DNA of 64,000 nt from Deefgea piscis (lineage in GTDB: Bacteria; Pseudomonadota; Gammaproteobacteria; Burkholderiales; Chitinibacteraceae): assembly GCF_019665785.1 (NCBI RefSeq), contig NZ_CP081149.1, forward strand, positions 1,302,001 to 1,366,000, read 5' to 3'. A model generated the notes under the pieces. That model ran no database searches, was not told the origin of the DNA, and worked only from the letters and a program-made list of their open reading frames with translations. The position numbers were made by a program, and so were the translations under genes. Position 1 is the stretch's first letter, and each line of letters begins with the position of its first letter. Below are positions 26,414 through 44,820 of the stretch, in pieces.

Positions 26414-27112
26414 ATGTTAAGTCGCTATTTATTATTTATTTTTGCTTGGGTGCTTGGCGTGATTACGCTGCAATGGCAAGCGACTTTGCCTGCTGTTACT
26501 TGGCCGCTGGCGACAGCTTGCTTGGCGCTGGGGCTACATTTTTGTTTGCAACGCTTTAATCAAAACCGGATTTTGCAATGGCTGGTGCTGATGCTCTTGG
26601 CGTTCAGTTTGGGTTTTGCTTGGGCCACATGGCGGGCGCAAATTCGGATGGCGCAGCGTATTCCAGTCGATTTAGTCGGTCAAACGCTGTGGATGTCGGG
26701 TTTTATTGCCGATTTACCGCAAGAATCACGCTATGGGCCGCGCTTTATTTTTACGCCAGATGCTGACCCCAAGCGAGCCTGGCAGTTCGATCGCATTCAA
26801 GTCAACGCCAAAGGCGGGCCTTTTGGCGCTGGCGAGCGTTGGCGCTTGCAGCTCAAACTCAAGCCAGTTCATGGCGTCGTCAATTCAGCGGGCTTTGATT
26901 TAGAAGCGTGGTTTTTACAGCAAAATATTGCCGCGATTGCCAGCATGAAGTCGGCTGAGCGTTTAGCGGGCTTTTCGCCTCAAGCTGCAGTGTTGCGAGT
27001 TCGCGCCGCGCTGCGCGAACGCATTGAGCACGCTTTACAGGATGCACCGTATCAAGGCGTGATTATTGCGCTAACGATTGGCGATCAAGCTGGGATCCCC
27101 AATGGAAAGTGA
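26414..27112 (+). pseudogene. comEC: comEC/rec2, 5' part only, cut by the transposon
   Basis: The frame gives the N-terminal part of ComEC, the inner-membrane DNA-uptake channel of natural transformation: two or three membrane spans (about 1-65), then the DUF4131-type region (about 85-195) and the start of the competence domain (GVIIALTIGDQAGIPN). Intact ComEC proteins continue for another 500 or so residues. Here the similarity stops at about 27102 and a stop codon follows at 27110. The break coincides with the left end of a Tn7-like element. Natural transformation through ComEC should be lost unless another copy exists. Confidence 0.9.
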
Positions 27113-27253
27113 TAAATGAAAGCTGAGGTGATAGAAAGAAAATCTACTGCTATTCTCAGCTAATATTTTTTTGCCCGATAAACTGAGTGATAAATTAGTT
27201 TTGAGCTAGCTAGGCACAAATTAACACATGTCAAACAAATGAAATTTGAGCTC
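27109..27253. repeat. Three TnsB-type binding sites at the transposon left end
   Basis: Three degenerate 22-bp direct copies at 27109-27130, 27187-27208 and 27232-27253, sharing AAATKARNTTTGAGCT. Copies 1 and 2 share GTGATAAAT exactly; copies 2 and 3 share TTTGAGCT exactly. Three spaced sites match the Tn7 left-end plan. The 27254-27444 remainder is gene-free. Confidence 0.6.
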
Positions 27254-28045
27254 AAGTTTTTAACTTCAAAAAAGCCCTCCAAATACATGGTGTATTCGAC
27301 ACCACGAAACTTTCTAGCAGAAACTCGTAGCTAAACTAATTCATCATATGCGGCAGTGTTAATCACAGTGCTTGTCCACTTTGATTATGCTGCAAAGTAA
27401 GGTTGCAAACTCAGTCACGAATACAATCTTAGTGGATAGGTGGCTTAAGGAAATAAATCACGTACCTGTGCAAAAGGTTGTCCTGTTTCTCCTGCTCGGC
27501 GAATTTTGCGTTCCAACACATGGTTTAAAGGTATCTCGCGTGTCAGCATTTCAGATAGGTCTAAACCATCCATGCAGATAATTCGCTTCCCTCTACCAAA
27601 TGCGTGTAGTCCATCAGTTGTGAATGAGCTATGACTTATGAATAATCCTCGGGTCCAAGCAGCTTTTTGGTCAATTTTCCCATGAAATGTATGTAAGTCT
27701 GCTGCTCCAATTGGGGAGTTATGCCATTTAGCTTCCAGTAGATAAATTTCTGAGTTAAGTGCAAAACTACCATCAATTTGTTCGCCTTGAATGCGAAAAG
27801 CTTCCCGTGCAGATAGCCCATAAGCATCAAATAGATTCTTCAAGAATTTTTCGAATGCGAAACCTCGTGCATGGGCATTGAGGCTTACTAACTCAAGTAA
27901 TTCAAAGTGCAATTGAGCCAAACGGCGACGGTCAAAGGCAACTATTGGTGGGGTGGCCACGTTGGAAAATGGAGGCGTAGAAGGTTGAGTCTTGCTGAAT
28001 CGCACCGGGTTTCGCGGAGGCACTAACTCTTGAGAGAATAGTGCC

Positions 28046-28366
28046 ATGAAAAAATCTACCCCATTTTCCCCTGAAGTCCGCGAGCGGGCCGTTCGCATGG
28101 TCATTGAGCACCTTGCCGAATATCCATCTGAATGGGCAACCCTCGTTTCCATCGCCAGCAAAATAGGCTGCACACCCGAAACGCTGCGCACCTGGTGTCG
28201 TCGACAAGGTGGCGATAGCGTTCAAGCCAACAAAAACTCCGCAGAGAGCGAACGCATCAAAGCCTTAGAGCGCGAAGTGCGCGAGCTTAAAAAGGCCAAT
28301 GAAATTCTGCGCCTGGCCAGCGCGTATTTCGCACAGGCGGAGCTCGACCGCCGCTTGAAATCGTAA
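28046..28366 (+). CDS. IS3-family transposase OrfA
   Basis: 106 residues with an IS3/IS911-type helix-turn-helix ([15 protein letters not shown] ... [14 protein letters not shown]) and a C-terminal leucine zipper ([23 protein letters not shown]). It binds the IS ends. A TTAAAAAGG stretch near 28287-28295 is a plausible slippery site for the -1 frameshift that joins it to OrfB. Confidence 0.93.
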
Positions 28367-29265
28367 GAGGATTCATCGATACCCACCGTGAGCAGCACGG
28401 GGTCGAGCCGATCTGCAAGCTATTACAGGTCGCTCCGTCTGCTTATCGACGGTATGCCGCTCGGTTGCGTAATCCCGCATTGCGTTGCCAGCGCGCCATT
28501 CGTGACGAGCAACTGAGCGGTGAAGTTACGCGCGTCTGGCAAGAGAATCACCAGGTGTATGGTGCCGTCAAAGCCTGGCGGCAACTCAAGCGCGATGGGC
28601 ATCTTGTCGCGCGGTGTACCGTTGAGCGTTTGATGCGCAGCCTCGGTTTGCGCGGCATATCGCGTGGTAAAACGGTGCGCACCACACGTCCAGACCCTGC
28701 TGTTGCGTGCCCGCTTGACCATGTAAACCGACAATTCGTGGCTGAACGACCAAACCAGCTCTGGGTGTCGGATTTTACCTATGTGTCGACTTGGCAGGGC
28801 TTTGTGTATGTGGCGTTTGTGATTGATGTCTTCGCTCGTTATATCGTGGGCTGGCGAGTTAGTCGCAACATGCAAACCGAGTTTGTGCTGGATGCATTGG
28901 AGCAAGCCCTTTGGGCGCGCCAGCCAGAGCGCGAAGCATTGATTCATCACAGCGACCGTGGCTCGCAATACGTTTCGATTCGCTATACCGAGCGATTAAC
29001 CGAAGCGGGTATCGAGCCATCAGTGGGCACGACTGGTGATAGCTACGACAATGCGCTGGCCGAGACGATTAACGGACTCTACAAAACTGAAGTGATTCAT
29101 CGTTTGGGTCCTTGGAAAAGTTTAGAATCTGTGGAGATAGCGACATTAGAATGGGTTTCGTGGTTCAATCAGCATCGTTTGCTTGGGTCGATTGGCCACA
29201 TTCCACCTGCGGAAGCAGAAGCAAATTATTATCGTAATCAAAGCGAGCAGGCCATGTTGGTCTGA
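28360..29265 (+). CDS. IS3-family transposase OrfB (DDE catalytic part)
   Basis: Reads in the -1 frame relative to orfA and has no good start of its own, so it is expected to be made as the OrfAB fusion. The frame runs from [18 protein letters not shown] through the rve integrase core with D (WVSDFTY), D (HHSDRGSQY) and E ([16 protein letters not shown]), all intact. A TTG at 28465 is a possible independent start. Active transposase expected. Confidence 0.92.
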
Positions 29266-29650
29266 CTCAAACCAAACAGCCTCCGCGAAACCCGGTGCGA
29301 TTCATGCCATTCAATCGATTAATTAGTTCTAAAAAACGCCCCGTGGCATTTGTGACCCGCTCGTCTTGATTGCTCTGTTGGCGGATTGCTTCCCTGTAAA
29401 TCCACAATGCATTTAGCGTGCGCACTACAGTCGGTTTGTCGACTGTATTTAGAAAACATCTAAGCCGTTTAGCTTTGGACGTACCGTTTACTTTATAGCG
29501 AATATTATCAATATCTATGTTGAGTTCTTCTGAGAAAAATTGTGCCATCGTTCGGTCAGAAAAATTCAACACATAACCGCTGCCCATTTCGAACAGCTCA
29601 TCAAGTAGCAACATATCAATCGTACGAATATTGGGTGAATTCAAATTCAC

Positions 29651-30401
29651 AGTACCCCTCGCTAGCTATTTTTTCTTAGTCACTAAAACTTGATTGTCAC
29701 ACCTTGGACCAGTCTAAACAATACAAGTGTGGTTGCGTAAACAACGACATACTGACTCCTCGGGCTTATTTGTGATTCCATCTCCGCGTCATGTTTGCAC
29801 TGAGTCTAAGTCCATGGCAATCGCGATTGCTCCTGCTATTCATCATAGTTGTCGTCACCATAGTAATCTGAGGTGTTGACGGGCAAGATGTCTTTATCCG
29901 ATATGAACTGTTGGCGAAATAACAAACAATAAGCACTTTTTCAGACAAATATGCAGAGAATCGACACTTTTTCAGACATTCTTATTGTGAAAAGCCATCG
30001 ATTAACACAAAAAACAGACTTCGCCCCCTCTAGCTACTCAGCAGTTCAATTTGCAGTGGTCTAGCAACAACCGGCGCTATTGTGCCTTTTATAGGCAATT
30101 TCAATCTTAATAGGCATAAATAATCCTTTTACTGCAAAGAGGCTTTATGTGAGGAATGTGGCAAAAACAGCTATCATTTTTTAGAAAAACTGAGAGTCTT
30201 TACACATCAATAGCGCAACAACTCAATTTGAAAAAGCACACGAAACTGTTGAAAGCACTATCAACTTGATGCGATTTATAAGAACATCCTTTGTAATAAT
30301 CGGCAACATTATTCCGTTTGTAGAGAATGTTGTACACAATAGGCATAATTACGCCCGTTATTACAGGTAACTTCGTCGAGATGTTTTGGAGGTAAATGCA
30401 A
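29651..30401. other. Gene-poor AT-rich stretch
   Basis: No convincing frame over 750 bases. It holds the promoter region of the split nuclease gene, a pair of 14-bp direct repeats (29934-29978) and the leader of the orphan regulator with its GGAGG site at 30388-30392. Confidence 0.6.
29934..29978. repeat. Two direct 14-bp repeats 31 bp apart
   Basis: CACTTTTTCAGACA occurs at 29934-29947 and 29965-29978, exactly 31 bp apart (three helical turns). On the minus strand each reads TGTCTGAAAAAGTG, beginning with TGT like transposon ends. It may be a remnant end of another Tn7- or Tn402-like element, or a two-site operator. Confidence 0.6.
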
Positions 30402-30731
30402 ATGAATCTAACACCCGAAGAAATGGAAAGTGAATTAGGTGAACGATTGAAACGTCTTCGCGTAAATCGCAATCTAGAACAAGCAACAGTAGCAGAGCGA
30501 GCAGGAATTAGCGTTCGTGCACTAAGGAACTTAGAGTCAGGCAATGGTTCGTCATTAAATACCCTCGTGCGTGTGTTAAGAGCCTTGGGAAAAGAACAAT
30601 GGCTAGAAACCATTGCCCCAATAGCAACGATTGACCCGCTAATGCTCACGCGTGCAGCAATACCGCGGCAACGCGCGAGCAAGCCGAGAACGAAGACGAA
30701 AGAAAATAACGGTAAATCTTCGGAGAAATAG
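30402..30731 (+). CDS. Orphan XRE-family (HipB-like) regulator
   Basis: 109 residues. Helix-turn-helix at about 8-65 (LGERLKRLRVNRNLEQATVAERAGISVRALRNLESG) and a basic C-terminal tail (RQRASKPRTKTKENNGKSS). It is like the HipB-type gene at 37785, which has the same ELG start and a similar tail, but here no hipA follows. The ATG at 30402 has GGAGG at spacing 9; an ATG six bases earlier would be too close. It may have become the regulator of the TerB operon downstream, whose leader holds repeated motifs. That link is inference. Confidence 0.8.
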   Translation: MNLTPEEMESELGERLKRLRVNRNLEQATVAERAGISVRALRNLESGNGSSLNTLVRVLRALGKEQWLETIAPIATIDPLMLTRAAIPRQRASKPRTKTKENNGKSSEK

Positions 30732-30763
30732 CTCCCGGAATTACTCTGCTTTTGCTTGTTGTA

Positions 30764-31145
30764 TTACTCTAGTATTGCCCTGAGCAGTTACTCTAGTATT
30801 GCCCTCAAAAATAGCTCTAAGATGTTGTATTTATTGAATTAAAATCAAGAAAAATTTTTGAATTTTTCGTTGAAAATTGCTCAAAAAAAGTTTTGAAATT
30901 TGATTTTATATTGCATGTTGCTTATCAGTTTAGGCTACAGCTCATTTGCCTAAGCAGAACGAAAATCCTGAATTGCATTCAGGGCACTACAGTCAGCTTG
31001 GGCCGCATCACCAAAACGGTTTCTAGCCCCAAACGAATTCAAACGTAAGTATTGGCTTGGCTATTACGATGTTGCCAAAATTGATTGACCACTACAGCTT
31101 GTATTACTCTGGTATTGCCATCTTGCATTACTCTGGTATTGCCCT
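30764..31145. repeat. Four copies of an 18-bp motif in two pairs
   Basis: TTACTCTAGTATTGCCCT at 30764-30781 and 30788-30805, and TTACTCTGGTATTGCC(CT) at 31104-31119 and 31128-31145. Within pairs the step is 24 bp. The bases after each pair (about 100) are also alike (ATGTTGTATTT, AGAAAAATTTTT, GCTCAAAAAA), so a whole block was duplicated. Looks like a tandem operator array in front of the TerB operon. Confidence 0.75.
31070..31094 (+). repeat. 25-bp inverted repeat, left copy
   Basis: Its reverse complement begins TAGTGGTCAATCAATTTT and matches 37424-37448 at 23 of 25 positions. The two copies bracket the TerB operon. Confidence 0.75.
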
Positions 31146-31475
31146 GAAAAAACGCCATAATATGTTGTATTTGTTGGGTTTTATGCTAGAAAAATTTTTT
31201 AATTTTTCTCTAAAAATCGCTCAAAAAATGTTTTTTAAAACAAGTTTTTTTGGCATTTTTCTTAGTCTTTGACAGAACTGAGCACAAATTCTGTACGTTC
31301 AAGAGTAAAATGTTTACTTACATGATTTATTGGTTAGGCTTCAGTACTCAGAAGCCAATATTATTAGCGTGTATTGAATTGTCTTTTTTGGATAGTAATG
31401 CCATCTAGACATGACTACTGCTAAAAAAATCTAATGCTGCAACTTATAAAAGCATGCAATCTAAGGATAAATCAC

Positions 31476-33887
31476 ATGGCAAGGCAGAAAAAATCTAGCG
31501 CCGGTAACGTCGTAGTCATAGTTATTGCTTGCATTGTGGCCTTGGTCGCATCAGTACCAAAGGAAATTTGGATAGGTTTGGGAATTATTGGCTTGATTTG
31601 GGCTGTATCAAAACTCACCAAAAAAAGCAGCTCAGGTAATGATATCCAAGCGGTGATTGCACGCGATAAACAACCATTAACAACAGCAAAAGTAAGTACG
31701 AATACTATTTCGAGCCATTCCATAAAATCACCAACTCGAGAGCACGCAATTACAAACGAAGACATTCCCATTCAAGTAAGAGTTAATACCGCACAGACTG
31801 ATGCATCTGAGTATCGAATTCCTGCCCCACCTTCTGGGTCGGGTTCACAAAAATGGATTCCAATAGGTCAGTATATCGAGGTTGCAGGAACCACGATTAC
31901 TGGTGGAATGGTTTACGTAGGGACCACTACTCATTTTGGGAATACCCCTGACCCTTCATTAATAGTGACCAATAAACCCGTTGCAAAATATGGTGACTAC
32001 ACTGAGCGACAATTTAGTTATTGGCCAAGTTATTCAGAGATTTCGGATTCTGCGCGTCGAGCTTATCTGAATTGGCTAGCTGGTGGCAGAAAGGACCCTG
32101 AAGCTGAAATTGGATTTGTATTTTTATTTTTCTACGGTCTTGAACGCCGAGTATTGGTTGATTCTCAGACAGACCCTATTGCAAAAGCCGAATTACCATT
32201 AATAGCACAAGAGCTGCAGCGTTTATTAAAGATTTATGGCCCAGCCTCGGGCTCATTCCGTAGTTATGCCGGCCAGTTATATGACTGGATATCCATGAGC
32301 GATTGTGCTGATTCTCTGTATCTGAAGCCAGTACCAACATTTCCAAAATCATATGATGTGCCAGTGTATATTCGCCTTGCTCTTGGGCAGGCGGCGATAG
32401 ATAGTGCTCCCGTACCTGCAACTCTTGCACTTGCATGGATTAAGCATGCGCCCAACATTTCATTAAGGACCCCAGCAACTCGTTGCGAGAGTGAGTTCAG
32501 CAGACTGTTTACATTACGCTATCACGAGAAATTTGTTGAAGGACTTCAGTTACCTCGCAACAAAACCAAACTGAAATTTCAATACCGCCCAGCGTCAGCC
32601 GGTTTGCTGCGCAATGGTGAGACAAAACTGAGCTTTGGTGATATTCCTGATGTAACTGTACTTACTGGGCCATTGAAAAAGTTGCAGGAAATAGTCGAAT
32701 CAACGACAAAAGAGTTGGAGTCATATAGCCGTTACTTATCAAAGAATTTGGAAGGTAGCACTGAGCTTGAAGGTGTATTGCTCTTGCCACCATTGTTGTG
32801 GCCTGACAATTTAACTTTAGCGTTGAAGAGCATTCAATCAGGAATGGAGGATGGCGAGATAGTAATGCCATATCAAAAACTACTTTCCGTATTAAATGCC
32901 AAATCAGTGCTAACAAAAGATAAAGCAATTACGTTAGCCAAAGCTTTAGAGTCGATGGGCATCGGCATAGAACCAAATCTACTTGGTGGCGCAAAACTAC
33001 CTAAACCAGAAGACACAGTCGTTTTATTTGATATTCCGGCTGGGGAAATTGTTTCTCCAATAACACCAGCTTATCAGATAGCCGTATTGACTCTTCAGCT
33101 TGCCTCATCGATTGCAGCAGCGGATGGAGATTTCGATGCAAAAGAATCCGCACTTTTGCGTGAGCAAATTCAAAGCTGGACACATCTAACTCCGTATCAC
33201 ATCCGCCGTTTATTGGCGCTGCTTCGCTTGCTCGTTATTTCCCCTGCATCCCTGACATCACTAAAAAAACAACTCGAGCCGTTGGATACAGAGACAAAAG
33301 AAGTTCTTGGCTCATTTATGGCAACAGTTGCTCAAACAGATGAAAAGGTTACGGTTGAAGAAATCAAGATGCTTGAGAAGGTGTACAAAGTCCTTGGCAT
33401 TGATAGCAAAAAAGTATTTAGTGATATTCATGCGGCAAGTCCCGATACTCCTTCAACGACACCAACCACAAAAAAAACAGACATTTCAACTTTCAAACTC
33501 GACCCTGCACGCATTGCGGTCTTGCAACAAGACACCGCCAAAGTTTCAGCCTTACTAGCCAATATTTTCAATGAAGAAGCTCAAATTTCAACGCCTAGTT
33601 CATCTTCTGAAGTTGCTATCGAGCAGGATGATTCCGAAACAATAGCAAAACAGAGCTATTTGCTTGGCCTTGATGAGTCGCATGACGCACTAGCTCGTAT
33701 GCTACTTTCAAGACCACAATGGAATCGTGAAGAGTTACTTGATGTCGCGTCAGACCTTGATTTGATGCTTGACGGTGCGCTTGAGCGCATCAATGAAGCA
33801 GCATACGACGTTCATGACATCCCATTCACCGAAGGTGAAGACCCAATTGAAGTTAACGCTGAAGTTCTGGAGAAAATTGAAGCATGA
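31476..33887 (+). CDS. TerB_N / TerB / TerB_C multidomain membrane-anchored protein
   Basis: About 803 residues. Two membrane segments at about 10-45 (NVVVIVIACIVALVASV, IWIGLGIIGLIWAV), then a linker, a TerB_N domain (about 170-290: YWPSYSEISDSARRAYLNWLAGGRKDP, FVFLFFYGLERRVL), a TerB-like helical domain (about 530-650: LASSIAAADGDFDAKESALL), and a TerB_C-type tail (about 690-803: LARMLLSRPQWNREELLDVASDLDLMLDGALERINE). Such proteins were linked by comparative genomics to ATPase-helicase partners in predicted DNA-processing or stress systems. The ATG at 31476 with AAGGA is preferred over an upstream start at 31434. Its stop overlaps the start of the ATPase (ATGA). Confidence 0.85.
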   Translation: MARQKKSSAGNVVVIVIACIVALVASVPKEIWIGLGIIGLIWAVSKLTKKSSSGNDIQAVIARDKQPLTTAKVSTNTISSHSIKSPTREHAITNEDIPIQVRVNTAQTDASEYRIPAPPSGSGSQKWIPIGQYIEVAGTTITGGMVYVGTTTHFGNTPDPSLIVTNKPVAKYGDYTERQFSYWPSYSEISDSARRAYLNWLAGGRKDPEAEIGFVFLFFYGLERRVLVDSQTDPIAKAELPLIAQELQRLLKIYGPASGSFRSYAGQLYDWISMSDCADSLYLKPVPTFPKSYDVPVYIRLALGQAAIDSAPVPATLALAWIKHAPNISLRTPATRCESEFSRLFTLRYHEKFVEGLQLPRNKTKLKFQYRPASAGLLRNGETKLSFGDIPDVTVLTGPLKKLQEIVESTTKELESYSRYLSKNLEGSTELEGVLLLPPLLWPDNLTLALKSIQSGMEDGEIVMPYQKLLSVLNAKSVLTKDKAITLAKALESMGIGIEPNLLGGAKLPKPEDTVVLFDIPAGEIVSPITPAYQIAVLTLQLASSIAAADGDFDAKESALLREQIQSWTHLTPYHIRRLLALLRLLVISPASLTSLKKQLEPLDTETKEVLGSFMATVAQTDEKVTVEEIKMLEKVYKVLGIDSKKVFSDIHAASPDTPSTTPTTKKTDISTFKLDPARIAVLQQDTAKVSALLANIFNEEAQISTPSSSSEVAIEQDDSETIAKQSYLLGLDESHDALARMLLSRPQWNREELLDVASDLDLMLDGALERINEAAYDVHDIPFTEGEDPIEVNAEVLEKIEA

Positions 33888-35188
33888 CCATCACTATTCG
33901 CCCTAAAGACCGAGATGCAGTCATTCAATCACTACGTGCCGGTGTAGTTCCTCGCACTGGCCAACATTTAATTCAAGTTGGACGTACGAATGAAATCGAA
34001 ACTCTAATTGGTGATATAGACCGTATTGCAGACGGCGGGTCTGCATTCCGTATCGTTACTGGTGAATATGGTGCCGGCAAAACTTTTTTCCTTAATTTAG
34101 TACGCACAGTCGCGCTCGAAAAAAAACTAGTCGTAGCAAGTGCAGACTTAAACCCTGACCGCAGACTTCACGCCAGTGGTGGCCAAGCTCGGTCGCTCTA
34201 TGCCGAGTTGATGCGCAACATCTCGACCAGAACCAAACCAGATGGTGGCGCGCTAGCTGGAATTGTCGAAAAATTCATTTCCACCGCAAAATTGGAAGCC
34301 AAAGCAAATGGACTTTCAACCGAAACAGTCATTAGAGAAAAGCTAAATCATCTAACAGAATTAGTGAATGGCTATGACTTCGCCGATGTCATTGCAGCAT
34401 ATTGCCGTGGTGTTGAAGAGGGCCTCGAGCAACTAAAAGCCGATGCAATCCGCTGGCTACGTGGCGAATTCACTACCAAAACAGATGCTAAGCAGGCCTT
34501 AGGTGTGCGTAGCATTGTTGATGATTCAGCTGTTTACGACCAATTGAAGTTGCTTGCTCGCTTTGTTCGGTTAGCTGGATTCTCGGGCTTGCTCGTGAGT
34601 CTCGATGAGCTAGTAAATTTGTACAAGCTTTCAAATACGCAAGCAAGAAATGCCAATTATGAGCAAATCTTACGCATTTTGAATGACTCGCTGCAAGGGT
34701 CCGCAGACGGCCTTGGTTTTGTTCTTGGAGGAACGCCAGAGTTCTTACTTGATACAAGGCGAGGGTTATACAGCTATCCAGCACTTCAAAGTCGCTTGGC
34801 TCAAAACACATTTGCTGTGGGTGGCTTAGTGGACTTCACTGGCCCAGTCGTACGACTTTCAAGTCTGACACCTGAAGACTTTTATGTGTTACTTCAAAAT
34901 ATTCGACATGTTTATGCTGCTGGTGACCAAGCAAAGCATTTGATTCCAGACCAAGGAATTTTTAGCTTTATGGAACACTGCTCAAGCCGTATCGGAGATA
35001 GCTATTTCCGAACACCACGAACCACCATAACTTCGTTTATAAATCTTCTGGCAGTTTTAGAACAAAACACTGGAGCTGCTTGGCAAGATTTACTTGGAGG
35101 AATCGAAGTAATAGCAGATACAGATGGTTTAGCTGATGCGCACGTCGATTCAGACGATGTAGACGAGTTTGCTTCATTCAAAATGTAA
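33884..35188 (+). CDS. BrxD-like (DUF2791) P-loop ATPase
   Basis: 434 residues. Walker A VTGEYGAGKTFFLNLVR (about 60-76), a family region RSLYAELMRNIS, Walker B GLLVSLDELVNLYKL (about 233-247), and sensor-like GGTPEFLLDTRRGLYSYPALQSRL. These fit the ATP-binding protein family found as BrxD in type 2 BREX and next to Lhr-like helicases. It is translationally coupled to the TerB-type protein and followed by the helicase after 15 bases, so the three form one machine. No BREX methylase or PglZ is present, so it is not a BREX locus. Confidence 0.88.
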   Translation: MTITIRPKDRDAVIQSLRAGVVPRTGQHLIQVGRTNEIETLIGDIDRIADGGSAFRIVTGEYGAGKTFFLNLVRTVALEKKLVVASADLNPDRRLHASGGQARSLYAELMRNISTRTKPDGGALAGIVEKFISTAKLEAKANGLSTETVIREKLNHLTELVNGYDFADVIAAYCRGVEEGLEQLKADAIRWLRGEFTTKTDAKQALGVRSIVDDSAVYDQLKLLARFVRLAGFSGLLVSLDELVNLYKLSNTQARNANYEQILRILNDSLQGSADGLGFVLGGTPEFLLDTRRGLYSYPALQSRLAQNTFAVGGLVDFTGPVVRLSSLTPEDFYVLLQNIRHVYAAGDQAKHLIPDQGIFSFMEHCSSRIGDSYFRTPRTTITSFINLLAVLEQNTGAAWQDLLGGIEVIADTDGLADAHVDSDDVDEFASFKM

Positions 35189-35203
35189 CTGAGTTATTAG
35201 TTT

Positions 35204-37426
35204 ATGGCAGCTTCATCGTCTTACTATTTACTGGATGAGCGGATTCAGCACTTTCTCTGGTCAGAGGGTTGGGAGTCGCTACGCCAAGCCCAAGAAGAAG
35301 CAATTCCCATTATTGTCGCTGGAGACTGTGATGTAATCGTTGCCGCTGCAACAGCTACTGGTAAAACTGAAGCTGCTTTTCTACCCGCATTAACGTATCT
35401 GCTCCAGAGTGAGAATCACGGCTTAATTGTTTATGTAAGCCCACTTAAAGCGCTCATCAATGACCAGTTTGGTCGACTTGACCGTCTCTGTGAACAATTA
35501 GAAATACCCGTCTGGCCTTGGCATGGCGATATATCGGCCTCAACAAAAACGCGGTTTATGGCTAAACGGCAAGGGGTGCTTCTTATCACCCCAGAGTCCC
35601 TTGAAGCACTGTTATGTAATCGTGGTACATCTATCAACGCGATTTTTGAAAACGCGGCTTACTTTGTTATCGACGAGCTTCATGCGTTTATTGGTTCTGA
35701 GCGGGGCAAACAACTTCAATCGCTCATGCATCGTATAGAAAATAGTATTGGTCGAAATATTCCCCGAATAGGTTTGTCGGCAACTCTAGGTGATATGAGC
35801 TTGGCGGCTGATTTTTTGCGACCAGGTAAAGGGGCTTCGGTCGCCATGATTGTCTCTAAGGATGCAAATACCGAACTGCGTATTTTAGTAAAAGGATATG
35901 AAGAACCGCTGGTAATTCGACAAAATTCCAGTAACTCCGATGAAGATGAGCCACCTCAGCCTACGATGCCAACCACGATTGCGGGACATCTTTTCAAGAA
36001 TCTTCGTGGCTCAAACAACCTAATTTTTCCTAATTCTCGGCGTGAAGTAGAACGTTATACCCATTTGCTAAACCAATTTTGCTCTACGCAAAATGTTCCC
36101 AATGAGTTTTGGCCGCATCACGGCAGTCTATCTAAGGAAATTCGCTCTGAAACTGAAGCGGCTCTAAAACAAAAAGAGCGGCCCGCAACGGCTATCTGCA
36201 CAAATACCCTTGAGCTCGGCATCGACATCGGAGCTGTTAAAAGCGTAGCTCAAATTGGCCCTCCACCGTCTGTCGCTAGTTTGCGTCAACGTCTTGGGCG
36301 TTCCGGGCGTCGCAAGGGAGAACCGGCGATTTTGCGAGGTTACTGCATTGAACAAATGATTGGCCCTCATGTTTCTTTGTCGATAGAGCTTCGACTAGAC
36401 ATGCTGCAAATGACCGCCATGATTTCATTGCTGTTAGAGAATTGGTTTGAGCCTCCAATGTCCAGTGGCGCTCATTTTTCCACGCTTATCCAGCAGATAC
36501 TCTCAATTGTTGCTCAGCGTGGGGGAGCAACTATCGGACAGCTTTATAGTTTGCTTTGCGGCCCAACCACCCCCTTTACTGGCGTAACAAAAGAAGAGTT
36601 TGCCATGCTGTTGCGCCATCTGGGCAAACTAGACCTACTGATGCAAGAGTCATCTGGATTGTTACTTCATGGACAGACAGGTGAGAAATTTGTTAATCAT
36701 TACACCTTCTACGCTGCTTTTGCTTCCGAAGAAGAGTTCCGACTCGTATGCGCAGGAAGAGCTTTAGGCACAATTCCTGTTACACAAATGCTGACGGTGG
36801 GTCAGCGAATTTTGTTTGCCGGAAAAACATGGTGTGTCGATGAAATTGATGAGAAGCAAAAAACAATTGTTGTCTCGAGAACCCGTGGCGGTGTGCCCCC
36901 ATTATTTTCGGGGGGAGCAGGCCGCACGCATACTAAAATACGACAACGGATACGTGAGCTATTAGAGTCCGATGAGACTCCAGTTTATCTAGATGACGTT
37001 GCAAAACGTTTTCTTACTGAAGCTCGACATAACTATGCGGCTAGAAACTTGAAGGAAACTATATTACTTGACCAAGGCAGCGAAGCACTCATTCTTACTT
37101 GGATGGGCGATGCAGCAAACGAAGCGCTAGCATGTCTGTTATTGAGACGAGGGTTTAAAGCCACAGCTGCGGGGCCAGGTATTGAAGTCCACAAATCTGG
37201 ACATAGTGGAACTGATATTTTAGATGCCCTCAGAGATACGTCGTTCGATGTGGCTCCATCACTAGATGAACTACTAATCGACGTAAAGAATCTTCAGAGA
37301 CAAAAATGGGACTGGGCTCTACCAGATGGATTACTGCGGAAAGCCTACGCAAGCCTCTACCTTGACCTCGATGAAGCTCAAATGTGGATAAAATCGCTTG
37401 ATACCCAGTCTGAAATTGCGCATTAG
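35204..37426 (+). CDS. Lhr-like DEAD/DEAH-box helicase
   Basis: 740 residues of superfamily 2. Motif I AAATATGKTEAAF, Ia YVSPLKALINDQ, Ib ITPESLEALL, II VIDELHAF (DELH), III GLSATLGD, and motif VI LRQRLGRSGRRKGEP, preceded by ICTNTLELGIDIG. The C-terminal half (about 400-740) is a long Lhr/BrxHI-type region without recognised motifs. It probably unwinds or translocates DNA for the system formed with the two genes before it. No strong ribosome-binding site; it probably depends on coupling. Its TAG stop lies inside the right copy of the 25-bp inverted repeat. Confidence 0.9.
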   Translation: MAASSSYYLLDERIQHFLWSEGWESLRQAQEEAIPIIVAGDCDVIVAAATATGKTEAAFLPALTYLLQSENHGLIVYVSPLKALINDQFGRLDRLCEQLEIPVWPWHGDISASTKTRFMAKRQGVLLITPESLEALLCNRGTSINAIFENAAYFVIDELHAFIGSERGKQLQSLMHRIENSIGRNIPRIGLSATLGDMSLAADFLRPGKGASVAMIVSKDANTELRILVKGYEEPLVIRQNSSNSDEDEPPQPTMPTTIAGHLFKNLRGSNNLIFPNSRREVERYTHLLNQFCSTQNVPNEFWPHHGSLSKEIRSETEAALKQKERPATAICTNTLELGIDIGAVKSVAQIGPPPSVASLRQRLGRSGRRKGEPAILRGYCIEQMIGPHVSLSIELRLDMLQMTAMISLLLENWFEPPMSSGAHFSTLIQQILSIVAQRGGATIGQLYSLLCGPTTPFTGVTKEEFAMLLRHLGKLDLLMQESSGLLLHGQTGEKFVNHYTFYAAFASEEEFRLVCAGRALGTIPVTQMLTVGQRILFAGKTWCVDEIDEKQKTIVVSRTRGGVPPLFSGGAGRTHTKIRQRIRELLESDETPVYLDDVAKRFLTEARHNYAARNLKETILLDQGSEALILTWMGDAANEALACLLLRRGFKATAAGPGIEVHKSGHSGTDILDALRDTSFDVAPSLDELLIDVKNLQRQKWDWALPDGLLRKAYASLYLDLDEAQMWIKSLDTQSEIAH

Positions 37427-37448
37427 TGGTCAATTAATTTTGGTAACA
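37424..37448 (+). repeat. 25-bp inverted repeat, right copy
   Basis: Begins TAGTGGTCAATTAATTTT and is the inverted match (23/25) of 31070-31094. The first three bases are the helicase stop codon. Confidence 0.75.
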
Positions 37449-37535
37449 GCCCAAGGCCAGTAATAGCTAACTTGCTTGGGCTGCTCACCTTTATTTGCTT
37501 GGCCATAATTATGTGGCACAAATCCAGTGTGCCAC
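37447..37535. repeat. Two hairpins after the helicase gene
   Basis: CAGCCCAAG (37447-37455) pairs with CTTGGGCTG (37472-37480); GTGGCACA (37513-37520) pairs with TGTGCCAC (37528-37535). The second is followed by CACTACA, as is the hairpin in the operon leader (30967-30991). Neither has a T-run, so they are not typical terminators. The rest of the gap to 37784 shows no gene. Confidence 0.7.
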
Positions 37536-37784
37536 TACAACTTGGTGTACGCGCGATGAGCGTTGGGCGCTCGCTGCTTGGTAACAGGAGTATGTACATG
37601 ACCAAAAATATCTGGCAACGCCTGTTGTCGGATTTTTTATAGTGCTTTCAAATGAAATCATTAGCTGTATAAATACGATTTAGTGATTTTAATTGGAATC
37701 GTTGAAGCTGAAGCTCTTTCAGTCTATAAGCATAATGGTTATAATTAGAAGCATTGATACACCAAACAAAGGGTAGTGATTTCA

Positions 37785-38129
37785 ATGGCAATCTTTATGC
37801 TGATGACGCCTGCCGAAATTCAGCGGGAACTAGGTCAACGGATACAGGCTTTGCGCCTTGCAGAGAACATTACTCAAGAAGAGTTTGGGGCTCGGGTCGG
37901 CCTATCTCGTAGCACGATTCGTAAGTTGGAAACGACCGGTCAAGTCACGCTCGATGCCTTTGTGCGGGTGCTTAGTGTGCTAGGGCGAGCTGAAGACCTG
38001 GAGGGCATCTTGCTACCCCAGGTGCCACTATCGATAGCTGACTTGGAAAAACAAACTGAGACCCGCCAACGGGCTAAAAAGGCAAAAACCAATGAAGCGA
38101 CTTTCCGTTATATACCAAGGGTGGGGTGA
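37785..38129 (+). CDS. HipB-like antitoxin / XRE-family repressor
   Basis: 114 residues. Helix-turn-helix at about 12-68 (QRIQALRLAENITQEEFGARVGLSRSTIRKLETTG). The tail is basic and overlaps the hipA gene by 38 bases in another frame. In HipBA modules the antitoxin binds HipA and represses the operon. A GTG at 37776 is an alternative start. It resembles the orphan regulator at 30402. Confidence 0.88.
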   Translation: MAIFMLMTPAEIQRELGQRIQALRLAENITQEEFGARVGLSRSTIRKLETTGQVTLDAFVRVLSVLGRAEDLEGILLPQVPLSIADLEKQTETRQRAKKAKTNEATFRYIPRVG

Positions 38130-39318
38130 GCAGTTTCATCTTGGCGAGCTGGCCGAAACCGATAGCACCCTCATGTTTCAATACACACCGGCGGCGTTGC
38201 AGCGCAAGCTGCAAATTTCACCCATAAAACTCCCATTACGGGTTGATGGCTACCAAAACTTCCCCATTACACAGCACCGCCTTCCGGGGGCTATTGCCGA
38301 TGCCTTGCCTGACGGTTGGGGGATGCTGCTGATTGACCGCTTATTCCGAAAAAATAACAAATCATCGCTGGGAGCACTAGACCGCCTCGCGTTCATACAA
38401 GATAGGGCCATGGGAGCGCTTACGTTTGAACCAGGTGAAAATGAAACTCTAACTCAGCAGGATGTCGACCTACTACACCTCGCAGAAAAGGCCCGGCTGG
38501 TGCTGGCCGATAGGGAATCCACTGAGGCTTTACGCGAACTTGCATTAATGGGAGGCTCCCCGCACGGTGCGAGGCCAAAGGTCCTTCTCAATTACAACCC
38601 GCTTACTTCTCGAGTGTATGGTTCGGAGCATGCCCCCGGCTTGCCTTGGTTGTTCAAGTTTCCAGCTCAAGATGAGCATAAAGAAGTCGTGCAGATTGAA
38701 GCCCTTTATGCGGAGATGGCTCGCGCGGCAGGGCTGGATATGCCTGATGTGGTGACCTGTGACCTTTCGCCGACCTTGTCCGCATTCGGAATTCGCCGAT
38801 TTGACCGCGAACAAGGCATGCGCGTGCCCATGCTCACCGTGGCCGGGGCAATGGACCTTAATTTTCGCGAAATAGGTGTACTCGACTACAACAACTTACT
38901 GCGCATTACTCGCGCAATATCCCGTGACGAACGCGAAGTTAACATCATGTTCGAACGCTGCGTGTTCAATGTTGTCTTCAACAACCGCGACGACCATGCA
39001 AAGAACTTCTCTTTCCGACTGGGGGCCGATGGCCATTGGCGCGTAGCACCCTGTTATGACCTGACGTTTAATCGGGGCCCTAATCACTACCATCAAATGG
39101 ATATAGCTGGGGAAGCGAAAACGCCTCGGCTCAGGGATTTGATGGCTCTCGCAACGCAAGCGGGCGTAACTAAAAGCTTCGCTACGGCTACGATAGACCG
39201 TATTGCCGCACTTGCAAGTCAATTCAAGGCGACCGCAAGCAACTACCAAATTCGAAGCGGAACTATCGATGAAATCGCGACTCTCATAGCCAGAAACCAA
39301 AAAAATATGCTGTCATAA
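38092..39318 (+). CDS. HipA-family serine/threonine kinase toxin
   Basis: 408 residues. HipA N-terminal couple (about 1-110) and the C-terminal kinase domain with the catalytic stretch NNRDDHAKNFSF (about 297-308) and the Mg-binding APCYDLTFN (about 320-328). HPxx-type ATP-loop region: MGGSPHGARPKVLL. E. coli HipA phosphorylates glutamyl-tRNA synthetase; the target here is unknown. Starts inside the HipB gene, so the pair is coupled. All key residues are intact. Confidence 0.92.
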   Translation: MKRLSVIYQGWGEQFHLGELAETDSTLMFQYTPAALQRKLQISPIKLPLRVDGYQNFPITQHRLPGAIADALPDGWGMLLIDRLFRKNNKSSLGALDRLAFIQDRAMGALTFEPGENETLTQQDVDLLHLAEKARLVLADRESTEALRELALMGGSPHGARPKVLLNYNPLTSRVYGSEHAPGLPWLFKFPAQDEHKEVVQIEALYAEMARAAGLDMPDVVTCDLSPTLSAFGIRRFDREQGMRVPMLTVAGAMDLNFREIGVLDYNNLLRITRAISRDEREVNIMFERCVFNVVFNNRDDHAKNFSFRLGADGHWRVAPCYDLTFNRGPNHYHQMDIAGEAKTPRLRDLMALATQAGVTKSFATATIDRIAALASQFKATASNYQIRSGTIDEIATLIARNQKNMLS

Positions 39319-39592
39319 TCCAGCGCGACCGATACGCTGTTGAGAATATGTCGCGCTCGGTGGGCAGCTAATCTGGCATAACTGAGCACTGGGACCTATG
39401 GTCTAGCTCGCTCCTGGAGTTAATCAGCTTAGCTGTCGAAAGTGTACTCATGCCCCAAAGCACTTCTTGTACTTCAGCCCTGTAGTTGCACACTGAATCT
39501 GGCCATCGAACAAAAAGTCTTACGCACCCCGATAGTACATTTCAAAAATATAAACATTGGGGATTAATATTTTAATAAAATATTTTAATTGA
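39319..39592. other. Gap between convergent modules
   Basis: No gene seen. Near the right side AATATTTT-AATA-AAATATT (about 39566-39586) could form an AT hairpin at the end of the leftward operon. Confidence 0.4.
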
Positions 39593-41104
39593 TTAAAAAC
39601 GCAATGCTTCCTTGCTTTGTAGATGTAACCTCAAAGACTGTGTGCTTTCAAATGCTAATTCTTTTCCAAAAGCATTTGCAACTCCCGCCAGTCCTTCATG
39701 GATACTCTCTCCATTAGCAGATGCATCTGCAATTTTATCAAAGGCCCATTTCAACTGTGCCTGCTTTTCTTGGAAAAACTCATCAAAAAGTAAATGCATA
39801 TCATGCCGATATGCAATATGCATCATAATTAACTTGGCACAAGCAGCTTCAACATTTTTTCGGTTTTCATCGGACAGCTGCATATCTTGCACGGATTTTT
39901 GTAGAGCAGCATACATGCTACCGCTCAAAAGAGATGCTGCCATACCCCCAATAAACGACCCCACTACAGTCCCCACACCCGGTAGGGCTGCAGTACCTAT
40001 TAATGCACCAAGATTTGCTCCAGTAAGAGAAGTCGCCAATGTAACTCCATTTCGGCTAATTTGACCTACAAATTCTTCAGAAGTAATTTTACCTCTTACA
40101 AGGTCGACGACTGCGACGGCAAGAATAGTGCTTGTCTGAACAATAACTGCGGGTGTCCCACCTTTACCTAAATTTTGTAAAACCTGCGAATTAGCCGTTT
40201 TAAGTGCACCTCCAACCGCTGAGGTAGTCGCGCCCGCAACATATGCCTTTGCTGCAGCAGAACCTGCATCCTTCAAAACAGCTTGTGTGGCATCTGCAGC
40301 CGATTTTTCGCCTGAGACAACTTTACAACCTTGAGTCGCAAGACCAACAATACCGGTTATAACAACTGCCGATTTAGCAGCATTTACTCCCGCACGATGC
40401 GCAACTTTTGTACCATCTTTAAATGCGCTTATTTCTGGGCTTTTGCGTGCATCCATAGCATCTGTGGTTGTAATTTTAGATTTAGTTGCTCTTTTCCTAA
40501 CGTCTCGTAATTGTTCCAATTCATTTTGCTTCTGCGCCGCTTGAGCGGTATCCCCAAGTTCTTGGAGTTTCCGTAGTTGAGTTTCCAACTTCACTTCTTG
40601 CTCGGCCCAATCTTGCAGAATGGCGTCAAACTGGTCCGCTGGAAATCTCAGCTCTGCAGTGCGATATTTTTCGTAACTTTTCTTATAGAGATATCGGTAT
40701 TTTTCTGTGTCTTGGTGGACTTTCATCTGCCCCCCAGGTAGAAAATCACCATTTATGTCTCTAAGCGGCAAACCCGTTTCAGGGTCAATGCTTACGAAAT
40801 CATATACAGGATGGTTTACAGCTCCAACATTATCTGTTCTTGCGCGTAAATCACCTTTACCATCAATCCAATATTCTGCATTCCCTCGAGCAATATCTTT
40901 TACTTCAGCTGAAAAGCCTGACTGTTGGAACAGATTGTTTTGTTCGAAATCTGGATTTAATTTGTACTTTGAAATTTTAGCTAATTCATCATAAGAATTT
41001 ATATGCTCGGCCACTCCTTGGCTGTATTTCTCCAACACAGAAGTAGCTGCATATATAGCTTCCCTTTCAAAATTCTGGGCTCTATCTTCTTTTTTTTGTT
41101 CCAT
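39593..41104 (-). CDS. Unrecognised protein with glycine-rich hydrophobic hairpin
   Basis: 503 residues from the ATG at 41104, which has GAGGA about 13 bases upstream. The frame is open 31 codons further, overlapping the gene before it. N-terminal half: a distinctive region with GFSAEVKDIARGNAEYWIDG and RTDNVGAVNHPVYDFVSID, then a charged coiled coil (about 145-205: ILQDWAEQEVKLETQLRKLQ). C-terminal half: alanine/glycine-rich hydrophobic segments (SAVVITGIVGLATQG; LGALIGTAALPGVGTVVGSFIGGMAASLLSG) like membrane-inserting hairpins, followed by amphipathic helices. No family named. Third gene of a leftward operon. Confidence 0.8.
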   Translation of the reverse strand: MEQKKEDRAQNFEREAIYAATSVLEKYSQGVAEHINSYDELAKISKYKLNPDFEQNNLFQQSGFSAEVKDIARGNAEYWIDGKGDLRARTDNVGAVNHPVYDFVSIDPETGLPLRDINGDFLPGGQMKVHQDTEKYRYLYKKSYEKYRTAELRFPADQFDAILQDWAEQEVKLETQLRKLQELGDTAQAAQKQNELEQLRDVRKRATKSKITTTDAMDARKSPEISAFKDGTKVAHRAGVNAAKSAVVITGIVGLATQGCKVVSGEKSAADATQAVLKDAGSAAAKAYVAGATTSAVGGALKTANSQVLQNLGKGGTPAVIVQTSTILAVAVVDLVRGKITSEEFVGQISRNGVTLATSLTGANLGALIGTAALPGVGTVVGSFIGGMAASLLSGSMYAALQKSVQDMQLSDENRKNVEAACAKLIMMHIAYRHDMHLLFDEFFQEKQAQLKWAFDKIADASANGESIHEGLAGVANAFGKELAFESTQSLRLHLQSKEALRF

Positions 41105-41126
41105 TGTATACGCTACATCCTCAGCG

Positions 41127-41993
41127 CTATTGCAATTCGATGTGAAGCTTGGCTGCATAATCAGTAACATCAGATTTTTGTTTATGTAATTGTTCAATTA
41201 TTCCTTCGAGTAATGCGCCTTCCCCATTAAGCAGAGACGTATTCAAAATATCTTTAAGCAATCGGGCTGCATTTGTAGCATCGACAACAAGTTCATGTAG
41301 TTTATTTGTTGATTGGTCAACATGCCTCTCTTGCTGACAAATCACTGGACTTAATTTTTTTATTGCTTCTTGTATTTCGAGCATTTCATTTGAGGATAGT
41401 TGTATATCTTTCATTAATAATTGCGCGTGTCCATGATATTTTTTTGTATCGTGAAGAGCCTTCACTCCGCCAATCACACCGGTGAGTAGTGCACCTAATA
41501 ATGTAGCAAACACAATGAAAATTAACTCTAAACCAGGGGCTGAGAATGTAGTGACTCCACTAGAATTAACGATTAAAAAGCTAAGGCCTGCGCTTAACAC
41601 GCCACCACCAATAATTCCTGGCATTCCATTTATAGGTTTAGGTACTTGAGGCTCCGTTGGATAAGTAGGGATTTTTTGGGTTTCACACACAAGCTCAGGA
41701 GTTATACGTTTTGAAGCACCCAGCAATATATATGCGTTTGACAGTGGCTGAATTTTTTGCGAAAAAATATCGGTTTTAAGTGAATCAAAAACGTGTACTA
41801 CTGACTTGGTTTGCTGCTGAATTGTATGAAAATGTTTCCGTCCTTGCTCTATAACAGTATTGACCGTTTGTACAACTCGTGTAGCTGCTTTACGGTCGAG
41901 TTCTCCTGCACTAAAAAAATTAGCCAGCTTATACGTTAGAGTAGTTGGGCGAGGTTCAATTAGAATCTCATAATGAAATACTGGATTGTTCAT
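41127..41993 (-). CDS. Unrecognised coiled-coil protein with two membrane segments
   Basis: 288 residues. N-terminal helical part, two adjacent hydrophobic segments at about 123-180 (GIIGGGVLSAGLSFLIV; LELIFIVFATLLGALLTGVIGGV) and a C-terminal coiled coil (about 195-285). A GGAG ribosome-binding site lies close to the ATG. It sits 9 bases after the first gene and 22 before the third. The helix-hairpin-helix plan repeats that of its neighbours although the sequences differ. Function unknown. Confidence 0.8.
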   Translation of the reverse strand: MNNPVFHYEILIEPRPTTLTYKLANFFSAGELDRKAATRVVQTVNTVIEQGRKHFHTIQQQTKSVVHVFDSLKTDIFSQKIQPLSNAYILLGASKRITPELVCETQKIPTYPTEPQVPKPINGMPGIIGGGVLSAGLSFLIVNSSGVTTFSAPGLELIFIVFATLLGALLTGVIGGVKALHDTKKYHGHAQLLMKDIQLSSNEMLEIQEAIKKLSPVICQQERHVDQSTNKLHELVVDATNAARLLKDILNTSLLNGEGALLEGIIEQLHKQKSDVTDYAAKLHIELQ

Positions 41994-42002
41994 GATTACT
42001 CC

Positions 42003-42938
42003 TTACGCATTCGCACATTGATTCGAAAGATAGTTTTTACATTGGGTGGTAATAGTCCCATCTTGTGAGATTATTTGAATCTCTAAAGTATCTTGTAGTG
42101 CGAGCGCGCAACTTGCTGCGACCTCTAGGGCATTACGCATTTTTGAGTTTTGCGCTTTAACTATCTCATTTAGGGCAGTAATGGTAGCCAACATTAAGTC
42201 TGCACCTTTGGCAATCATTTCAAGTTGCTCTATACCTGTTTTAATTTCTTCGACCACCACTTCTATTTCATCGCGTATGTTTCTAGCTTCGTTTAGCTTT
42301 TGCTTAGCTTTATTTTGACCAAAGTACATTGCGACTAATGCCACAGGAAGTACAGCAATGCCACCCAGTACAGCCGTTCCGCCTGCGACTCCTAATCCTC
42401 CGGCAGAGGCCGCCCCACCGCCAAGCCAAGCCAATGTTGCATTACTTGCTGCGACTCCAGATAGTGTACTAATTGCTGTTCCTGTGGATGCAGTACCAAC
42501 AATCCCAGCTAAACCATATGCACCAAGTGCAAGTGTGGCGCCACCCAATGCGCCAGAGCCAGCACCAATAAGCATTTGATTAACATGCGCAGAATCAATT
42601 TTTAACTGGCCAATCGCATTTTTAACTTGAATTGGACTTAATCCTTCTTGAAATTCACCACACCCTGTGTTGTTCAATTTTCCAATCATTTCAAAAAGTT
42701 GAACAAATTCCGTCACTGATGTCCGATAAACTTCTGTTTTTAACTGGCCAAGCTCAGCAAGCTTCTCGCAGGTACTTTCTCTAACTTCCTCAAGCCTTTC
42801 TCTTACTTCTTCCTCTTCCTCCTTAGCCCACCGAACAATATTTTCACTTTTTTTTCGGTCGTTACCGCCACCTGTAACAAAATTACCAACTCTCTCAGCG
42901 GTATCTTGAACCGCCCATTTAAACGATAACCAGCCCAT
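42003..42938 (-). CDS. Unrecognised coiled-coil protein with large glycine-rich hydrophobic core
   Basis: 311 residues from the ATG at 42938, with AAAGGA at a good distance; the 14 codons before it are not counted. A charged coiled coil at about 33-90 (KEEEEEVRERLEEVRE), a long hydrophobic Gly/Ala/Thr core at about 122-206 (GAGSGALGGATLALGA, GGTAVLGGIAVLPVALVAMYF) and a second coiled coil at about 208-285. The plan recalls helical pore-forming proteins, but I recognise no family. It is the first gene of the operon. Confidence 0.8.
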   Translation of the reverse strand: MGWLSFKWAVQDTAERVGNFVTGGGNDRKKSENIVRWAKEEEEEVRERLEEVRESTCEKLAELGQLKTEVYRTSVTEFVQLFEMIGKLNNTGCGEFQEGLSPIQVKNAIGQLKIDSAHVNQMLIGAGSGALGGATLALGAYGLAGIVGTASTGTAISTLSGVAASNATLAWLGGGAASAGGLGVAGGTAVLGGIAVLPVALVAMYFGQNKAKQKLNEARNIRDEIEVVVEEIKTGIEQLEMIAKGADLMLATITALNEIVKAQNSKMRNALEVAASCALALQDTLEIQIISQDGTITTQCKNYLSNQCANA

Positions 42939-43598
42939 TTTGTTTCCTTTAGAAAGTTTTTTTATTGCACTTCGGTGCATAAATGATATTTACAAACGTG
43001 GGAGTTTGTAGATAACTTATGCTAGCTTGTTAATAATTAAACGCTAATATTGCAATGAAAATCATGATGTATGTCATGCAAATTCATCTTTTATCCATAC
43101 ACACTCTGTAATTATTTAGATTGGTAAGATAGATTGAAACTGTCTGCCTCGCTAGTATGTTCAACCGTGAATCATTTTCATTTGTTTCAGCAGCAAATAA
43201 AAAACTGCTCATGGCAGATGTGTTTATGCAGGTATGTAGGGCGTAGGTTTAACTAAACTTTGCTCGAGTATATGGACTGGCAATCGTTGAGTTTATCCGG
43301 CGGTGGTCATGGATTTATTTGCAAGAAAACCAAGCGACTGGGCAATATCACTCTCTCCAGGCTGTGATTTAACCTGACTAGGCTCTAAGATACCTTAGAA
43401 TCCAAAAGCAAAAACTTACATGTCTAGAAGTATCTCTGGTAGACATTTTCGATGTGCCCCATGGTATTTTAGAATCGATGTTTCTCATATAAATGAAGCT
43501 AGAAGCTAGTTATTAATGGCCGCATGAACATGTAAAAATTTCCATCTTCGTCAATAATAGAGCCTGAATGTTTCCCTTTTTACTGAGCAATATTTAAA
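42939..43598. other. Divergent intergenic region
   Basis: 660 bases with no convincing gene between the leftward coiled-coil operon and the rightward deaminase gene. Both promoters should be here. No repeat or palindrome stands out. Confidence 0.5.
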
Positions 43599-44312: not shown

Positions 44313-44453
44313 TGCGACTAATATTTGCTTACCCCAGTTTACTGATAAATTTGAACTTAAAATTAAGTTAGCGATATTTTAATTTTTGATTGAGCAATCG
44401 GATATGTCACGAAAACCTTCAATACTCATTAAAAAGAGGCGTTTACATAAGAA

Positions 44454-44787: not shown

Positions 44788-44820
44788 CGAAAAATTACCC
44801 CATTAATCTCCACTGATTGT

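Follow-up and report, generated by a model that had tools for sequence, protein, structure and literature searches.

A large Tn7-like element splits comEC of Deefgea piscis at what looks like the landing site of a transposon family

The reading frame of comEC in Deefgea piscis (26414-27112, 232 aa) breaks off in foreign DNA, which raises the question of what has entered this DNA-uptake gene and whether it came there by chance or by homing. We analyzed a stretch of 64,000 nucleotides (hereafter the window; G000:C1:1302001-1366000) of the 3,575,158-bp genome, which is a single contig. From the sequence of the window it had been predicted that a Tn7-like transposon lies within comEC and breaks it, and failure to find the remainder of the gene beyond the right end had been named beforehand as grounds for rejection. 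Both halves were located. The foreign DNA starts at 27103, inside the comEC frame, whose last 10 nt, up to the stop codon ending at 27112, belong to the element. The 3' part of comEC stands directly behind the right end, 10.7 kb past the window, where the single match to PF03772 (Competence) in the whole genome starts at 1376746 and at profile position 11 of 270. With one CCAA counted, four codons (12 nt) separate the Ile of GDQAGI from the Trp of WQRF, just as in whole congener genes, e.g. GDQAGIPKPQWQRF, and comEC is untruncated in all six same-genus genomes of the comparison set, as the prediction would have it for relatives without the element. The whole element spans genome positions 1329103-1376743 (47,641 bp) and has a G+C content of 0.433 compared with 0.49-0.50 in its flanks. 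We conclude that comEC of D. piscis is cut in two by a large Tn7-like element. The gene and the left end are laid out as follows:

26414..27102, plus strand: 5' part of comEC (DUF4131 part; DUF4131 E 3.3e-24), broken after ...GDQAGIP
27099..27102, no strand: left copy of the target-site duplication CCAA; right copy at genome 1376744-1376747 (L002:10744-10747)
27103..64000, no strand: window part of the Tn7-like element, which continues to genome 1376743 (L002:10743)
27103..27132, no strand: left terminal inverted repeat, 22/30 identical to the inverted right end
27109..27128, plus strand: terminal TnsB-like site, strong, matched at the other end
27187..27206, plus strand: second TnsB-like site, 14/20 identity, moderate support
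27232..27251, plus strand: third TnsB-like site, 13/20 identity, moderate support

The left end reads TGGAAAGTGATAAATGAAAGCTGAGGTG and the right end, inverted, TGGTAATTTACAAATGAAACCTGATGTG; 22 of the first 30 positions are equal, so that the terminus predicted from the left end, TGGAAAGT from 27103, is correct. The predicted duplication CCCAA needs amending to CCAA, 4 bp, because the fifth base differs. Three TnsB-type sites had also been proposed. The terminal one is strong, and the inner two have moderate support, 3 of 1000 letter shuffles of the left end attaining both of their scores together; the same test fails at the right end (102 of 1000). The TG...CA termini match between the ends, TG and CA being imposed by our scripts, and the inner sites are backed at the left end only.

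The transposition genes, every one of them on the minus strand, lie from the right end inward in the order tnsA, tnsB, tnsC, a nuclease-type gene, ORF339, and tniQ:

L002:812-1726 (outside the window), minus strand: tnsA, 304 aa, Tn7 TnsA 4.8e-41
62704..64000 in the window (start at L002:809), minus strand: tnsB, 701 aa in all, Tn7 TnsB 3.5e-67
61095..62702, minus strand: tnsC, 535 aa, Tn7 TnsC 6.3e-71
60253..61071, minus strand: staphylococcal-nuclease-type protein between tnsC and ORF339 (family match)
58968..59987, minus strand: ORF339, conserved tniQ companion with a predicted OB-fold part and a C-terminal DUF4096-like domain, candidate target selector
57713..58888, minus strand: tniQ, 391 aa, TnsD-like (TniQ 1e-18, TnsD 1.2e-12), proposed comEC target selector or adaptor

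For TnsA, TnsB, TnsC, and TniQ the closest solved proteins are those of Tn7, the nearest structure to TniQ being Tn7 TnsD (3.3e-7). The element thus encodes the proteins by which Tn7-like transposons are recognized, TnsA, TnsB, and TnsC from one operon together with a TniQ/TnsD-family protein, and no TnsE family match was found among the genes scanned. ORF339 was found by sequence and profile search in 33 of 49 sequences searched, and all 22 aligned members have the DNA-binding-type C-terminal domain (E up to 1). We found no sequence match of ORF339 to a solved protein below E 0.1, no TnsE among the best 50 matches listed in a fold search, and no match in a plasmid search, and TniQ gave only distant matches on plasmids (best listed, 28% identity). 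When aligned ORF339 sequences were compared with proteins, scoring being confined to the 8000 candidates with the most words in common, at least four matches resulted; one ORF339 relative is labelled 'transposase' in its source record.

Judged from sequence matches, the cargo includes phage- and plasmid-defence genes:

27445..28191, minus strand: Mrr-type restriction endonuclease at the left end of the element (Mrr_cat 1.9e-12; defence-model match weak, 4e-4)
28046..29265, plus strand: nested insertion sequence, frames 28046-28366 and 28465-29265 (HTH_Tnp_1; rve), presumably of IS3 type
31434..37426, plus strand: Shango sngA-sngB-sngC (8.4e-105, 1.4e-179, 4.4e-270)
37776..39318, plus strand: HipB/HipA-like pair (family match)
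43599..44312, plus strand: BURPS668_1122-type deaminase domain protein (family match)
45387..48835, minus strand: Olokun-like pair (OloB 45387-47132, 8.5e-93; partner 47129-48835 inferred by position)
49002..49895, minus strand: WYL-domain protein (family match)
50005..57561, plus strand: Wadjet type III jetA-jetB-jetC-jetD (jetB match weak, 1.6e-4)

Three defence systems, Shango, Olokun-like, and Wadjet III, thus lie within 31434-57561 of the window. Wadjet acts against plasmids. Ten cargo and core proteins gave no match in an NCBIfam search. Between HipA and the deaminase-domain gene, 39593-42980 on the minus strand holds three frames (534, 288, and 325 aa) without Pfam or NCBIfam matches, possibly unknown defence genes. 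In the right part of the element, L002:4279-6719 presumably encodes a UmuDC-like pair and an SRAP-like frame, and we take transposase frames to be present in the part beyond the window as well. A 382-aa protein at L002:3032-4180, for which NCBIfam gave no match, has a 47% identical relative in the comEC element of L076, Azoarcus.

Interruption of comEC at this place recurs. Among 61 genomes (D. piscis and 60 relatives), 56 have a PF03772 match, and in exactly 3 of these 56 the match starts at profile position 10-11: D. piscis, G017 (Chitinolyticbacter meiyuanensis, Chitinibacteraceae), and G027, each from a different genus of the same family. In every one of them TniQ lies 5 to 16 kb from the comEC 3' half (<17 kb), and the 5' halves lie ~40 kb (G017) and ~22 kb (G027) from the 3' halves. 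The core proteins of G017 and G027 are 75-81% identical, while those of either are only 28-46% identical to those of D. piscis, so that a single recent spread does not account for them. The tniQ of G027 (L034:7029-7673) has lost its middle part and changed frame; because of this damage, the element may be stranded in comEC.

A genome scan with the D. piscis TniQ as single query found no relative. When 22 TniQs were aligned and the alignment was run against 84,980 species, each represented by one genome, relatives were found encoded at 155 places. We kept the best 80 and searched for comEC in the genomes of the 23 closest loci (L058-L080) and of 7 more distant ones. The gene is split in 18 of the 23 closest, with the match starting at profile position 9-13 (24 in one); L064 and L067 have a broken comEC 5' half less than 6 kb from tniQ, and a 3' half was not found in them; and L069, L073, and L080 have a whole comEC. 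In all seven genomes with a more distant TniQ, comEC is whole and in one frame. Together, 23 species-level genomes have elements in comEC, 21 with both halves (on different contig numbers in 6 of the 21 pairs) and 2 in which a 5' half near tniQ is all that was found. The presence of TniQ in the 20 scan cases is by construction, because all of them were found through TniQ. By genome name, we take 17 of these 20 to be beta-proteobacteria (including Derxia, Malikia, Duganella, Rhodoferax, Curvibacter, Hydrogenophaga, Aquabacterium, Acidovorax, Dechloromonas, Azoarcus, and Pusillimonas), two to be only 'Proteobacteria', and one to be a bin labelled Rhizobium, although bin names may be wrong. In an order-wide census, 338 of 399 genomes have a comEC-type match; the further split case seen among about 150 best of these 338 rows, G388 (Dechloromonas hortensis), is the same as L072/G437 and was counted once, and rows taken in this way give no frequency of split comEC. 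Recurrence at the same comEC site looks like the work of a transposon family landing in a DNA-uptake gene.

The junctions bear on how precise this landing is. A first script, in which TG...CA ends were required, found a 4-bp duplication in 15 of 21 pairs, of which 13 have identical copies and 2 differ at one letter. Once one copy is taken out, the GDQxxI and W codons stand 12 nt apart in 15 of 15, as in whole genes. A second script presupposed the 12-nt spacing, picked the ends whose inverted repeats agree best, and resolved 20 of the 21 pairs. In all 20, comEC is interrupted 0-6 nt behind the last GDQxxI codon (the last residue being Val or Leu in two), so that the insertion point falls between the GDQxxI codons and the W of W..F..TG[IV].HL.SISGLH. 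The duplication is 4 bp long in 17 of the 20; it is perfect in 15, and three of four letters agree in G431 and G435. The three exceptions are G423 (no duplication), G424 (3 bp), and G439 (either 7 bp, six of them matching, or 5 bp if the ends are shifted out of register). G423 and G424 come from two Derxia species (L160/L187 and L161/L186) with near-identical ends and duplications of 0 bp and 3 bp, for which a subsequent deletion or an exchange of ends may account. Erosion of the right end in G442 has reached into comEC. Most family members have the ends TGG...CCA. A 5-bp duplication is stated for Tn7 and all its relatives in the part of PMC11406308 available to us; because 4 bp departs from this, we claim Tn7-like membership by proteins only and regard the element as a variant.

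Orientation is equally constrained. All 11 loci with tniQ and a 5' half have comEC and tniQ in antisense orientation, as do D. piscis, G017, and G027, and the remaining same-contig cases agree by coordinates; insertion is thus orientation-controlled at a fixed site. The same site and orientation in many genera rule out chance insertion. Selection could in principle mimic targeting, if insertions were random and only those that abolish comEC were retained and seen, and the excerpt of PMC12955456 describes comEC of Piscirickettsia salmonis as broken by many different elements; however, the positions given there are non-identical, whereas here 20 of 20 breaks lie within 6 nt of one codon, and the comEC elements have one orientation wherever it was checked. 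We regard random insertion followed by selection as very improbable. The result is stronger than what was first claimed for a single genome: comEC is a recurrent site- and orientation-specific target in 23 species-level genomes, rather than a stray insertion.

We consider it very probable that the best explanation is a Tn7-like transposon with TnsA, TnsB, TnsC, and a TnsD-like TniQ that is site-specific, inserts in one orientation, and uses comEC as its attachment site. We propose that TniQ, alone or with or through ORF339, reads conserved comEC DNA and would then recruit TnsC and TnsAB about 10 bp ahead of the DNA read. If attTn7 is a guide, this DNA would be that on the side of the transposase-gene end, encoding TG[IV].HL.SISGLHIT. 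For Tn7, the portion of PMC2918618 at hand places the binding of TnsD within glmS, at +23 to +58 relative to the insertion point, and the same interval on the transposase-gene side of comEC covers the DNA for TG[IV].HL.SISGLHIT. Across 19 insertion-bearing comECs, 10 of 36 positions on the transposase-gene side are at least 90% conserved compared with 5 of 36 on the other side (means 0.71 and 0.71); within 60 nt of the insertion point, the mean is higher on the other side (0.73 versus 0.71), which has fewer 90% positions (13 versus 19). Because mean conservation is alike, the transposase-gene side as the binding side is a lean and no proof.

A guide RNA could direct the element instead, as in CRISPR-associated transposons, and the available text of PMC11406308 has several Tn7 relatives homing in this way. 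Among the window genes scanned, however, no cas gene exceeded the Pfam cut-off (the SngC helicase of Shango cross-matches Cas3-type models), and the longest exact matches between the element and 200 bp of comEC on either side are 12 and 11 bp, no longer than in shuffles. Guide-RNA homing is thus disfavoured, and we give it hardly any weight.

Which protein reads comEC is less settled. We think it fairly probable that TniQ does so alone; that it acts with or through ORF339 is a possibility we hold below even chances. In one form of the latter, ORF339 would recognize comEC and TniQ would be a mere adaptor; at comM, TnsF and TniQ of Tn6022 have been proposed to divide the work in this way. ORF339 is found in 22 of the 23 closest TniQ loci (L058-L080) and in D. 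piscis, G017, and G027, and the one locus without it, L078, has tniQ and gave no tnsA, tnsB, or tnsC matches in the flank searched. ORF339 has the DNA-binding-type C-terminal domain, and TniQ of the comEC elements, at 380-440 aa, is near in length to the 369-aa TniQ of Tn6022; in the part of PMC10293859 that we could consult, selectors over 400 aa are described as direct. Against this, ORF339 does not track the target, because it is also present where comEC is whole (L069, L073, L080, L084, L085, L086, L090, and L103) and often lies kilobases from tniQ, and the TnsD match of TniQ extends past the TniQ domain. We therefore view recognition by ORF339 as plausible and somewhat doubtful.

In a TniQ tree, the 22 comEC-associated rows fall into one clade of 34 rows (support 100/99), whose remaining members are 8 rows of hosts in which comEC is whole and 4 further rows. 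Six label changes are needed within the clade, a number as low being reached in 11 of 500 shuffles, and targets have therefore switched within it. The comEC target is not fixed in the clade, because 3 of the 23 close genomes and the 8 clade rows have whole comEC. In two hosts with whole comEC the element has other neighbors, an FAA-hydrolase gene next to L073 and a sigma-54 regulator at no great distance from L080; these are probable target switches. The TniQ of D. piscis has its nearest neighbor in a Dechloromonas bin, at 49% identity. The sequences thus point to a Tn7-like clade, mostly of beta-proteobacteria, of which many members appear to use the interior of comEC as their chromosomal attachment site.

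As in Tn7, to whose proteins TnsA, TnsB, TnsC, and TniQ are the nearest among those solved, insertion is oriented and beside conserved coding DNA, and the tnsA side of the transposase genes is placed toward the conserved motif. The comEC elements differ in that they land inside and break their target, whereas Tn7 uses the glmS attachment site; in their 4-bp rather than 5-bp duplication and mostly TGG...CCA ends; and in having a shorter TniQ/TnsD of about 390 aa and ORF339, with TnsE not found among the genes scanned. Tn6022/AbaR and Tsy likewise insert inside a competence gene, and Tn6022 has a tniQ with a conserved companion gene, but the target of Tn6022 and Tsy is comM and their selector is TnsF, a tyrosine-recombinase relative (PMC10293859, as far as its text was available). 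In D. piscis the target is comEC, the comM-type gene is in an open frame, and no TnsF-type tyrosine-recombinase Pfam match was found among the window genes scanned. Loss of comM lowers transformation, according to the accessible section of PMC11472951, whereas loss of comEC should abolish it. P. salmonis, in which mobile elements also interrupt comEC, differs in that various elements do so and in that no Tn7-like family is named in the available part of PMC12955456. Tn6230 (yhiN) and the parE- and tRNA-directed Tn7-like elements home to conserved genes in the same way, using other genes; the targets named in the consulted part of PMC11406308 are glmS, yhiN, comM, plasmid resolution sites, parE, and tRNA genes, and the word comEC has 0 occurrences there. 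No report of a Tn7-like element in comEC appeared among the titles and abstract openings of open-access papers listed, and the matches listed for TnsD and comEC together concerned only Chlamydia and the genetics of intracellular bacteria. The element is Tn7-like by its proteins; what is new, within the literature searched, is the comEC target, and, unexpectedly, the 4-bp duplication.

For the host, the insertion likely means loss of the DNA-uptake channel and hence of natural transformation, as far as gene content can tell. No second comEC was found genome-wide (one PF03772 match and one DUF4131 match), so that no copy can serve as a replacement, while dprA-type and comM-type genes are still present, the ComM-type Mg_chelatase_C family having one match in the genome, in an open frame of 504 aa. 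In the part of PMC11472951 available, comEC inactivation drops strains below the transformability threshold of its assay. We compared D. piscis with four of its six congeners by dN/dS. The 5' part gave 0.13-0.22 for D. piscis and 0.12-0.18 among the congeners, and the 3' part gave 0.07-0.14 and 0.07-0.15. Both halves evolve about like whole genes, and the insertion is therefore recent, young compared with the species. The low dN/dS of both halves rules out an old, decaying pseudogene.

That breaking comEC benefits the island has, in our judgment, about even odds. Loss of transformation may in addition shield the element against curing by DNA from outside, and removal of mobile elements by recombination is discussed as a reason for hits in comM in the same excerpt of PMC11472951. 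It is just as easy to hold that the targeting is real and the breakage a mere side effect, the element having settled on a near-universal, dispensable gene with a conserved stretch of DNA and drawing no benefit from the block to transformation. Such an element would find the conserved TG[IV].HL.SISGLH stretch directly behind its insertion point and comEC-type matches in 338 of the 399 genomes of the order. Tn7 uses conserved glmS coding DNA likewise (PMC2918618, in the part at hand), but lands behind its gene, whereas this element lands inside comEC; and a second competence gene, comM, is the target of Tn6022 and Tsy (PMC10293859, in part). The cargo may speak against a mere side effect as well, as it includes Wadjet, an anti-plasmid system.

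These considerations can be joined into a wider reading, which we put forward tentatively and think rather unlikely as a whole: that a widespread clade has made comEC, which encodes the inner-membrane channel for DNA uptake, its landing site, switching transformation off, barring curing and rival DNA, carrying Wadjet and phage-defence cargo, generating a 4-bp duplication, and using with TniQ a new selector, ORF339, as the comEC counterpart of TnsF at comM. ORF339 would in that case combine a single-strand-binding-like OB-fold with an IS5-type DNA-binding domain. If confirmed in an assay, the 4-bp duplication would contradict the 5 bp stated for all Tn7 relatives and provide a new TnsAB pair to study. 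Because one clade has comEC-homing elements as well as relatives that leave comEC whole, the idea that elements disable transformation to avoid curing is directly testable. If true, comEC would be the second competence gene, after comM, to serve as a chromosomal homing site of Tn7-like elements, and here DNA uptake should be lost outright.
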